A DNA stretch of 64,000 bases from Rhodothermales bacterium (GTDB lineage: Bacteria; Bacteroidota; Rhodothermia; Rhodothermales; JANQRZ01): positions 1-64,000 of the forward strand of contig JBDUXZ010000005.1 of the NCBI GenBank assembly GCA_039944855.1. Reading direction: 5' to 3'. Both the position numbers and the translations under genes were made by a program. The notes below the pieces were generated by a model that saw only the letters and a program-made list of their open reading frames with translations, was not told the origin of the DNA and searched no databases. Every line of letters starts with the position of its first letter. The stretch's first letter is position 1. Positions 35,039 through 40,090 of this stretch are shown here, one piece after another.

Positions 35039-35051
35039 CTGTTATTGCAAT
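35039..35051 (+). repeat. CTGTTATTGCAAT motif between convergent genes
   Basis: This variant of the dispersed motif (T in place of the second C) starts two bases after the stop of the glycosyltransferase-methyltransferase gene. It contains, on the other strand, the miaA stop codon. No gene starts here. Confidence 0.7.
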
Positions 35052-36001
35052 GTCTCAGCACTAATATCATCCATTGCATTCCCCTGCGAAATATCGAACC
35101 ACACATACTCGCCGTGGCGACGGAACCACGTCAGTTGTCGCTTCGCATACCTCCGAGAGTTGCGCTTGATGAGCCGCACCATCTCCTCGAATCCGATCTC
35201 GCCTCGGAGATAGGCGAGGGGCTCCCGGTAGCCGATCGTTCTCAGGGGGTTTGGCGTCCGCTCGTTTACATACGGTTGCAGGCTGCGATTCTCTTCGACC
35301 AACCCGCGATCGAGCATCTCATCCACGCGCCGATTAATCCGGTCGTAGAGTTCCACCCGGGGGCGCGTTAGAACGCGCGGGGCAAAGCGGTGCCGGGATA
35401 CCGTCTTCTCTTCGTGATACGAAGAGAGCGGCTGCCCCGTATCGATGTAGACCTCTAGTGCGCGAACGACCCGCTGCGTTTTCGTCGCGTCCATCATGGC
35501 CGCGCTGTCCGGGTCGACCGCCTGCAGTTCTTGAAAAAGGATGTCCTCACCTTCACGATCGAGTCGATCCATCAAGGCCGTCCTTGTGGCAGTCGTCGTA
35601 GGTGGGATCTCAGCTAGGCCATGCAGCAGCGCTTCGATGTAAAGTGTCGAACCACCTACGACGATGGGGATTTTGCCGCGCTTCAGTATCTGATCTATCC
35701 GCTCAGTAGCGGCCTGTGCGAAGCGACCCGCAGAGAATGGCTCTGAGATATCCAACTCGTCGATGAAATGATGAGGGACCCGCTGGAGGTGTTTATGGTC
35801 AGGCTTCGCCGTTCCTATAGATAGTTGCCTATAAATTTGCCGACTGTCGGCCGAGACAATCTCTCCGTCCATTCGCTCTGCAAGACCTATGCTGAGCTCT
35901 GTTTTCCCGACGGCCGTAGGCCCGATGAGGGCAGGTATGACTGGTGCAGATTTTGACATTATTGGATCAGTAGATCGTAGTCTCCGAACGTACTGGGGCA
36001 C
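35042..36001 (-). CDS. miaA: tRNA dimethylallyltransferase
   Basis: MiaA adds an isopentenyl group to A37 of tRNAs that read UNN codons. The P-loop is in LIGPTAVGKTELSIGLA. The catalytic Asp region is VSADSRQIYRQLSIGTAKP, and QLTWFRRHGEYVWFD is the C-terminal tRNA-binding signature. The frame opens at 36001 (MPQYVRRLRST), but an ATG 14 codons later (MSKSAPVIPALIGPTAVGK, from 35959) fits family starts better. Composition is visibly lower in GC than neighbouring loci. It follows the FAD oxidoreductase after 28 bases or more on the same strand. Confidence 0.93.
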   Translation of the reverse strand: MPQYVRRLRSTDPIMSKSAPVIPALIGPTAVGKTELSIGLAERMDGEIVSADSRQIYRQLSIGTAKPDHKHLQRVPHHFIDELDISEPFSAGRFAQAATERIDQILKRGKIPIVVGGSTLYIEALLHGLAEIPPTTTATRTALMDRLDREGEDILFQELQAVDPDSAAMMDATKTQRVVRALEVYIDTGQPLSSYHEEKTVSRHRFAPRVLTRPRVELYDRINRRVDEMLDRGLVEENRSLQPYVNERTPNPLRTIGYREPLAYLRGEIGFEEMVRLIKRNSRRYAKRQLTWFRRHGEYVWFDISQGNAMDDISAETLQ

Positions 36002-37594: not shown

Positions 37595-38551
37595 TCAAGA
37601 GAGTTTAATGTAGTCGGCAGCGCTGTCGCGCAGCTTGTCGCGCTGGTGGATGTAACCCATCGTCGTTTCGAGTCGCTTATGGCGTGCGTGCGTCTGCACC
37701 TGTTGCAGCGTGGCGCCCGCCTCGATAGCCAGGGTGCAGCCCGTATGTCGAAGTGTGTGGGCCCCGACGGTCGCATCGAGGCCGGCGCGGCTTGCCGTCC
37801 GGCGTACGACGCCATAAATACCATCGGGGGAGAGGCGGTTTCCTCGGCTGTCGTTTCGGCTCAACGACCGCCACAGCGGTCCCGATTCGATACCGTAATG
37901 CGCTCGCATGTCCTCAATGGCCTCGACGACGTGAGCTGGAATTTTTACGTATTCATCCGATCCGCCTTTGGTCCTCGGCAGGTCGAGCACCCAGTACGGG
38001 CCTGTCGTGTGCACGTGGCGCACATCCATCGCGGAGGCTTCCGAGCGGCGCAGCGCGCAGTGTATCATGACGAGGAGTAGCGTCCTATCTCGAACGGCAG
38101 CTTGTCCGTTCTCTGCCGTGGCTTCGATGAGGCGAGTGGCTTGCTCTTGTGTCAGAACCGTGATGGTTGTATTTGACTTCGCATTTCTATCGATCCGGCG
38201 CACGAGTTGCTTGTTCGCCGGATTGGCGTCTACGAGTCCGAGTGCTTCAAGCCAACTATAAAAACCCCTGATCGCTGATACCTTTCTCTGGAGTGTACTC
38301 GGTCGCAAGCCCGACTCTTGCAAATGCTGGAGGAAGGCGTTGAGGTGAACGAACGTTATAGCCCGTGCCATTCGCAGGGTGACAAACTCTGCATCGAACA
38401 ACTGCAACAGGTCGTTGCGGTATGCGCGCCGCGTCTGCTCGCGATCGAAACGAAGCAGGTAGACCGGCAGCAGGTCAGCGTCGAGTGCGGGGTCGTGCGG
38501 GGCGATGTCACCGCCGGAGGCGACGAGGCTCGTGATGGCGTGGTCTGTCAT
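37595..38551 (-). CDS. Tyrosine recombinase (XerC/XerD-like integrase)
   Basis: The 318-residue protein cuts and rejoins DNA through a phosphotyrosine link. An N-terminal SAM-like core-binding domain (about 25-110, YRNDLLQLFDAEFVTLRMAR) precedes the catalytic domain. All active residues are visible: Arg in CALRRSEASAMDVRH, Lys in RTKGGSDEYVKIP, His-x-x-Arg in HTLRHTGCTLAIEAGA, the second His in HARHKRLETTMGYIH and the nucleophile Tyr in the same stretch. The size is that of Xer proteins rather than large phage integrases. I start at the ATG giving MTDHAITSL, and a dif-like palindrome lies 24-51 bases before it. The next genes on the strand are the low-GC oxidoreductase and miaA. Confidence 0.9.
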   Translation of the reverse strand: MTDHAITSLVASGGDIAPHDPALDADLLPVYLLRFDREQTRRAYRNDLLQLFDAEFVTLRMARAITFVHLNAFLQHLQESGLRPSTLQRKVSAIRGFYSWLEALGLVDANPANKQLVRRIDRNAKSNTTITVLTQEQATRLIEATAENGQAAVRDRTLLLVMIHCALRRSEASAMDVRHVHTTGPYWVLDLPRTKGGSDEYVKIPAHVVEAIEDMRAHYGIESGPLWRSLSRNDSRGNRLSPDGIYGVVRRTASRAGLDATVGAHTLRHTGCTLAIEAGATLQQVQTHARHKRLETTMGYIHQRDKLRDSAADYIKLS

Positions 38552-38574: not shown

Positions 38575-38602
38575 AGGTGTGATAATAAGGGTTATCACGG
38601 GT
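38575..38602. other. dif-like palindrome next to the recombinase gene
   Basis: Perfect arms GTGATAA (38579-38585) and TTATCAC (38592-38598) flank a 6-base spacer. Taken as 11-base half-sites around the spacer, this gives the 28-base plan of Xer dif sites, with the inner ATAA and TTAT shared with E. coli dif. Outer bases match poorly. It could equally be an operator controlling the recombinase or the divergent membrane gene. Confidence 0.5.
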
Positions 38603-38698
38603 ACAAGGCAATATGCTGTTTTTTCCTACCCCTGGGCCTCGTCGCCTCGAAACCATTCGGTGAGCCGTGCTTTAGGCTTCACTCCTCGGCTTCCCCGT

Positions 38699-40090
38699 GT
38701 GCCTGTGTATCTACGCTTTCTCGAACTCCTCCGCCGCGTCCGTGCGAGCTACTGGTTCATTCCGTCGCTGATGGCCGTAGCAGCTTTCACGCTCTCCATC
38801 ATTCTGGTCAGCATCGACATCCGACTCGGACGGGGTTGGATCGACGACATCCCCTGGCTTTACGCGAACGAGCCTGAAGGGGCCCGCGCGATGCTGTCTA
38901 CGATCGCGGGCTCGGTGATCTCCGTCGCCGGCGTGACGTTCTCCATTACGATCGCGGCGCTCAGCCTCGCGTCCTCGCAATACGGACCCCGGCTCATCGC
39001 GGGGTTCATGCGGGACCGCGGCAATCAGTTCGTGCTCGGCACGTACACCTCGACCTTTCTATACTGCCTGCTCATCCTGCGGACTATCCGCGGTTCGGAG
39101 TCGGCTTCGTTTGTCCCGCACCTCGCGATTATCGTCGGACTCGTCCTCGCGATCCTTTCGGTCGGCGTGCTGATCTACTTCATTCACCACGTGTCGCAGA
39201 CGATCCGCGTCTCGTACGTCATCCATCAGGTGAGCCAGACGCTCAACCACCGGATTGACTCGCTGCAATCGTCGGCCGCGCAGCCCGCTTATGCCGTGGA
39301 CGGCGGCAAATGGCGGGATCTCCCTGAGGATTTCAGCGACCGCGCCGTGACGATCCGCTCGCGACGGGCCGGGTACGTCCAGGTGGTCAACGACGCCCGC
39401 CTTGTAGCACTCGCGGCAAAGCACGACCTGCTCATCCGCGTCCAGTCGCGGCCGGGGGATTTCGTCGTTGACGATGGCGAACTCCTCCGCGTGCTCGGCC
39501 GTGCGGCTGACGACGCCCACGTCGCTAAGCAGCTCGTCGGCACCTTCTTGCTTGGCATGCGGAGGACGGATTCGCAAGACGTCATCTCGCTGGTCCAGCA
39601 ACTCGTCGAAGTGGCTGCGCGCGCGATATCGCCCGGCATCAACGACCCGTTTACGGCGATCACCTGCATCGATTGGCTGACGGCCGCGTTTAGCCGACTG
39701 GCTGCGGAGGATGTGCCCTCAGCGTATCGTTACGATGATGGCGGCACGTTGCGACTCGTGTTCCAACCCGCGACGTTCGAGGAGTTTATGGATGCGGCGT
39801 TCGACCCACTGCGCGAATACGGTCGCGGGATGGTAGAAATCGTCGTCCGCCTGCTACAGAGCATCGAGTCGGTCGGCCAGCGCGTGACGATCCCACAGAA
39901 TCGCGACACGCTGAGCCGCCACGCGCACGCGATCTATACTGACGCACTCCATCACCTCACGCACGAGAGCGACCTGACTCGAGTCGAAACCCAGTTCCGT
40001 ATCACGATGGCCACCGTTTGGGGGAATACCGACGACGACAGCGCCTCGCTGCAACGCGTCCCGAACCTCCCCCAAGACTTCGCAGGCTGA
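38699..40090 (+). CDS. DUF2254 membrane protein
   Basis: The protein of ~463 residues has four N-terminal membrane helices (SYWFIPSLMAVAAFTLSIIL, MLSTIAGSVISVAGVTFSIT, a third around YTSTFLYCLLIL, a fourth around IIVGLVLAILSVGVLIYFI) and a soluble C-terminal half. The SSQYGPRLI and PGINDPFTAITCIDWL signatures mark the DUF2254 family, whose function is unknown. A longer frame begins at GTG 38579, but that lies inside the palindrome. I prefer GTG 38699 (VPVYLRFLELLRRVRASYWF), just before the family homology. Divergent from the recombinase. Confidence 0.85.
   Translation: MPVYLRFLELLRRVRASYWFIPSLMAVAAFTLSIILVSIDIRLGRGWIDDIPWLYANEPEGARAMLSTIAGSVISVAGVTFSITIAALSLASSQYGPRLIAGFMRDRGNQFVLGTYTSTFLYCLLILRTIRGSESASFVPHLAIIVGLVLAILSVGVLIYFIHHVSQTIRVSYVIHQVSQTLNHRIDSLQSSAAQPAYAVDGGKWRDLPEDFSDRAVTIRSRRAGYVQVVNDARLVALAAKHDLLIRVQSRPGDFVVDDGELLRVLGRAADDAHVAKQLVGTFLLGMRRTDSQDVISLVQQLVEVAARAISPGINDPFTAITCIDWLTAAFSRLAAEDVPSAYRYDDGGTLRLVFQPATFEEFMDAAFDPLREYGRGMVEIVVRLLQSIESVGQRVTIPQNRDTLSRHAHAIYTDALHHLTHESDLTRVETQFRITMATVWGNTDDDSASLQRVPNLPQDFAG

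Follow-up and report, generated by a model that had tools for sequence, protein, structure and literature searches.

Resolution of chromosome dimers by a single recombinase is documented in streptococci and lactococci, some epsilonproteobacteria, Legionellales and archaea. In a 64-kb stretch of Rhodothermales DNA (the window), we find a 28-bp palindrome beside the gene of an Xer-type recombinase, called type A here; this palindrome very probably serves as the chromosomal dif of an Xer system that works with one recombinase, the neighbouring enzyme (Table 1). The best reading of the sequence comparisons is that the system is specific to the Rhodothermales, with its own recombinase clade and its own site sequence, and is comparable to XerS/difSL, XerH/difH and XerL/dif. 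It would add an order of the Bacteroidota/Rhodothermota branch to the single-recombinase systems.

The likeness to each described system is partial. XerH/difH of Campylobacter and Helicobacter also combines a single Xer with a palindromic near-terminus site that sometimes lies beside the gene (PMC2731167), but the XerH chain has 363 aa, as against ~318 aa for type A, and the type-A profile scores 51.7 bits with XerH, below the 73.5 bits of XerD, preferring XerD/XerA to XerH, a protein with no curated model. XerS of streptococci and lactococci is genetically linked to its terminus site, difSL, as here; type A reaches 43.7 bits with the XerS model, whose cut-off is 267. XerL/dif of the Legionellales, compared by its description, is likewise a single recombinase of one order with long uninterrupted inverted-repeat arms, but its dif is more than 400 kb from xerL (PMC9765430). 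Archaeal XerA also pairs a single Xer with a dif-like site (PMC2958812), and type A scores 109.7 bits with the XerA model (cut-off 220). The XerC/XerD-dif system of most bacteria shares with this one a 28-bp, 11-6-11 terminus site, FtsK-gamma and the inner ATAA/TTAT bases, the resemblance to E. coli dif that a sequence-only reading of the locus had pointed out; it differs in having two active enzymes, where there is apparently one here, and in its canonical dif. None of the searched papers on Xer systems with one or two recombinases mentions Salinibacter or Rhodothermus in its main text. Kono et al. report predicted dif for 19 Bacteroidetes (PMC3025954), and it is possible that some member of the Rhodothermales has an earlier computed dif prediction.

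Table 1. Features of the recombinase locus and its palindromic site (positions in the window)
Feature	Position	Strand	Basis or remark
miaA (tRNA dimethylallyltransferase)	35042..36001	-	Syntenic neighbour of type-A and many type-C xer loci
FAD-dependent oxidoreductase/phytoene-desaturase-like gene, between recombinase and miaA	36030..37580	-	Name read from translation alone
Type-A Xer-type tyrosine recombinase, ~318 aa, all catalytic residues intact	37595..38551	-	PF00589 + PF02899, active-site alignment
Putative dif-like recombination site, 28 bp, 11-6-11: AGGTGTGATAA TAAGGG TTATCACGGGT	38575..38602	.	Conserved beside orthologs, unique in genome, covarying arms
Arm 1, AGGTGTGATAA	38575..38585	+	GATAA core common to all type-A sites
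Central region TAAGGG, 6 bp, asymmetric	38586..38591	+	6-bp spacing invariant, letters vary among relatives
Arm 2, TTATCACGGGT	38592..38602	+	Arm comparison among relatives
Divergent DUF2254 membrane-protein gene	38579..40090	+	PF10011
Promoter-like hexamers for recombinase, -10 TATTAT within site	38582..38611	-	Consensus match only

The structure of the site agrees with the sequence-only reading, which had described GTGATAA and TTATCAC around a 6-base spacer, 24-51 bases upstream of a recombinase with all its catalytic residues. The 7-bp arms are perfect (38579-38598), 8/11 arm pairs agree over the full 11-bp arms, the start codon at 38551 on the minus strand places the site 24-51 bp upstream, and the alignment shows R, K, H, R, H and Y, the six catalytic residues, all kept. 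The listed GTG start of the divergent DUF2254 gene falls within the site, so its true start is probably downstream. The G+C content of the site is 43%, against 66% for the whole window. The palindrome by itself is little proof, because inverted repeats of the 7+6+7 plan, of any sequence, number seven in the window, and arm length alone was dropped as a criterion. Its sequence is another matter: GTGATAA-N6-TTATCAC at up to 2 mismatches has 1 match against 0.03 expected, and the core GATAA-N6-TTATC occurs once in the whole 4.6-Mb draft genome. The sequence of the palindrome is not due to chance. By analogy with Xer/dif systems, the asymmetric centre is presumed to be the crossover, or overlap, region that confers polarity on the site.

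The recombinase forms a clade of its own among the Xer-sized proteins, apart from E. coli XerC/XerD, and scores far under both the XerC and the XerD cut-offs. Its AlphaFold model has moderate confidence (pLDDT 75.6), and in Foldseek the model matches Cre as well as XerA and XerH bound to difH, the latter two among the top hits. Most of 60 relatives have a type-A ortholog, at 42-75% identity; the named ortholog records come from Rhodothermales or unclassified Bacteroidetes MAGs, and the remaining matches of the scan are generic (21-37% identity). Synteny with miaA, and often also with purC, is conserved, and the FAD-dependent oxidoreductase-like gene is a kept neighbour in some relatives.

The site is conserved together with the gene. 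Comparison of the palindrome beside orthologous recombinases, a check that the sequence-only reading had proposed, found an 11-6-11 site with the GATAA-N6-TTATC core 23-649 bp upstream in 20/30 ortholog loci. There are ~19 other matches to that core in ~87 Mb (22 genomes searched), or about one per 4.6 Mb, and this low background puts the chance of a core within 0.7 kb at ~1e-4 per genome. Elsewhere the site is farther from the gene: ~4 kb (G036, L220), 4.8 kb (G018), 24 kb (G028) and 74 kb (G004). A search at the orthologs of G020, G037, G043 and G051 found no site. The arms differ between genera yet vary together (ACTTCCGATAA/TTATCGGAAGT, ATGTTTGATAA/TTATCAAACAT, ATGTATGATAA/TTATCGTACAT), and in some relatives they agree at 11/11 positions, as in ACTTCCGATAA CAGTTC TTATCGGAAGT. 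Outer-arm symmetry is 91/150, against 65 +/- 5 in shuffles, a comparison that does not control for the relatedness of the genomes. Such covariation is the pattern expected from one protein that binds both arms. Matched enzyme-site pairs of this kind should help in decoding arm recognition.

Covariation bears directly on the idea that the site is a two-recombinase dif at which type A and a second Xer would take one arm each, as XerC and XerD do. Neither XerC nor XerD was found above its curated cut-off, the XerD model finding no such protein in the genome studied or in the 60 relatives, and that genome has no canonical dif (a TTATGTTAAAT-like XerD arm, with at most 1 mismatch). Both results answer a check for xerC/xerD and another dif that had been suggested from the sequence alone. 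Enzyme and site escape recognition by XerC/XerD models and by the canonical dif. The cut-offs are strict (only 4/14 control genomes pass for XerD), so the case against two active recombinases leans also on the state of a candidate partner, type B. Three clades stand out among the Xer-sized proteins, A, B and C, and type B is the only other Xer-sized gene conserved throughout the order (G000:C11:26329-27180 in the genome studied). It keeps a conserved chromosomal position, 0.13-0.15 of the replicon from dnaA in six of the eight genomes placed below, and this, with arms that are imperfect in the genome studied and agree at only 6/11 positions in family f12 (G032, G039 and G046), speaks for a second enzyme. 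In 14/14 type-B members checked (L130-L138, L307, L309, L311, L315 and L316), however, both catalytic arginines are replaced (R148 to S, R247 to T), which rules type B out as an active partner; from its sequence it almost certainly does not exchange strands, yet it is well conserved, and it is probably a non-catalytic DNA-binding or regulatory protein. Type B also occurs in type-A and type-C genomes alike, and the sites of these two kinds of genome have no more of a half-site in common than ATAA/TTAT; there is no dif-like site near type-B genes; and the type-A arms are identical in several genomes as well as covarying. We consider a two-recombinase dif improbable. The earlier description of the recombinase as "solo" needs qualifying: the genome encodes 10 PF00589 proteins, but all fall below the XerD cut-off, and the other conserved Xer-sized gene is catalytically dead. 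The ten include the gene at G000:C5:74647-75249 and eight further ones, and most resemble mobile-element integrases.

In relatives, the position of the site on the chromosome is that of the terminus. In eight of them, whose assemblies have dnaA on the same contig, 0.46-0.61 of the replicon separates it from dnaA, the fractions being approximate for G013 and G032, which are not closed, and G025 and G034 carrying a second dnaA-like gene. The mean offset from the dnaA antipode in these genomes is 0.043 of the replicon (P ~1e-5, or 2.5e-5 counted by genus). The distance between the site and the peak of cumulative GC skew, sought within stretches of ~200-250 kb, is 15 bp for G012, 77 bp for G004, 5.3 kb for G009 and 20.7 kb for G013; G025 and G034, where the local peak is ~54 kb off, count against the reading. 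For published dif sites the median distance is 7,277 bp, with values from 146 to 199,612 bp (PMC2731167). G004 amounts to a near-blind test: it has no site near the gene, and its skew peak pointed to the copy 74 kb away, a motif already in the genome-wide pattern list. In relatives, the skew test put forward in the sequence-only reading favours the terminus. In the genome studied, neither the window nor its contig, C5, yields a usable GC-skew signal; the assembly is a 41-contig draft, so the terminal location is inferred from relatives. The site may serve as a terminus marker for Rhodothermales genomes.

These positions also bear on the possibility, raised at the outset, that the palindrome is just an operator through which the recombinase represses itself while the true dif is elsewhere. 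The site is just upstream of the recombinase, the promoter-like -10 TATTAT is inside it, and in family f13 catalytically dead homologs retain upstream GATAA palindromes, all of which would suit an operator. An operator alone would fit poorly with a site that is kept at distances from 23 bp to 74 kb with intervening sequence, that lies near the terminus in eight genomes and that falls within 100 bp of the GC-skew peak in G004 and G012, and we regard this as very unlikely to be its sole role. A secondary role is possible: with the predicted -10 inside the site, binding could auto-repress the gene, and the overlap suggests that occupancy may damp recombinase expression.

The sequence-only reading had also offered an integration site, and the pair could belong to a mobile element, the enzyme as its integrase and the palindrome as its attachment site. 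There are several other integrases in the genome, and capture of Xer enzymes by elements is frequent (PMC8138268). The evidence nevertheless favours the chromosome-dimer site: type A has one best copy in most relatives, its synteny with miaA and often purC is conserved, the site is at the terminus, the genome studied has no second copy of it, and no element genes were seen in the neighbourhood. An element origin is thus the least credible of the alternatives and extremely improbable. Three features expected of a single-recombinase Xer/dif system are found here, namely an intact and conserved Xer, a single-copy cognate palindrome and, in relatives, a terminus position with a skew switch. It is gene conservation, terminus position, skew switch, arm covariation and the lack of canonical XerCD/dif that favour the dimer site, the first of the roles proposed from the sequence alone. 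The outcome named there as refuting, a canonical dif with XerC/XerD elsewhere and an unconserved palindrome, is the opposite of what was observed.

These observations are consistent with a mechanism of the following kind. Homologous recombination between sister chromosomes would produce a dimer, and FtsK, found with its gamma domain in 39/40, would presumably bring the two dif copies together at the septum. Each of the near-identical 11-bp arms would be bound by one subunit of a tetramer built from the one recombinase, which would then cut at the edges of the central 6 bp and exchange strands to yield two chromosome monomers. We infer catalysis on the site, activation by FtsK, the homotetramer and dimer resolution in vivo from these comparisons.

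Relatives that lack type A mostly carry type C, a different intact Xer that is nearer to XerD (~157-193 bits) and has a different 28-bp palindrome. That palindrome is directly upstream of the gene in most loci (L140-L149) and has TTATGTTRCAT arms, as in ATGTAACATAA TTATCC TTATGTTACAT; among genomes that carry a C gene there are C sites, exact or with 1 mismatch, beside it. The A and C sites have no common half-site beyond ATAA/TTAT, and several type-C genes adjoin miaA, as type A does. Two loci, L226 and L228 (= L142, G052), have both enzymes but only the C-type site, and are possible intermediates of module replacement. Family f13 (L204, L206, L207, L312-L314, L317, L320, L321, L323 and L330) has a degenerate type-A homolog, which has lost the catalytic H, H and usually Y, with GATAA palindromes upstream, and after it comes a C-like recombinase that is active; the dead copy may now be a regulator. 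Neither A nor C was found in ~11/60 genomes, several of them incomplete. The sequences suggest that one single-recombinase module, whether A or C, has replaced the other in place, often at the miaA locus. A broader scheme is possible, though we stop short of calling it probable: the Rhodothermales would have at least two modules, A and C, often at the same miaA locus, in each of which a single recombinase resolves dimers at a palindromic dif of its own, the genomes with both enzymes and family f13 would be intermediates of in-place turnover, and the dead type B would be a structural or regulatory partner. If so, turnover affects an otherwise near-invariant system, and the suggested swap within one order bears on the joint replacement of an enzyme and its sole chromosomal target.

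A further observation concerns G018, which has a second dif-like copy (L298, G018:C2:114641) on a smaller contig, besides the one near its gene (L302, G018:C1:1558774). The flanks of L298 are closer than those of L302 to the chromosomal dif of G004, and the smaller contig may be a plasmid or element that uses the host dif.
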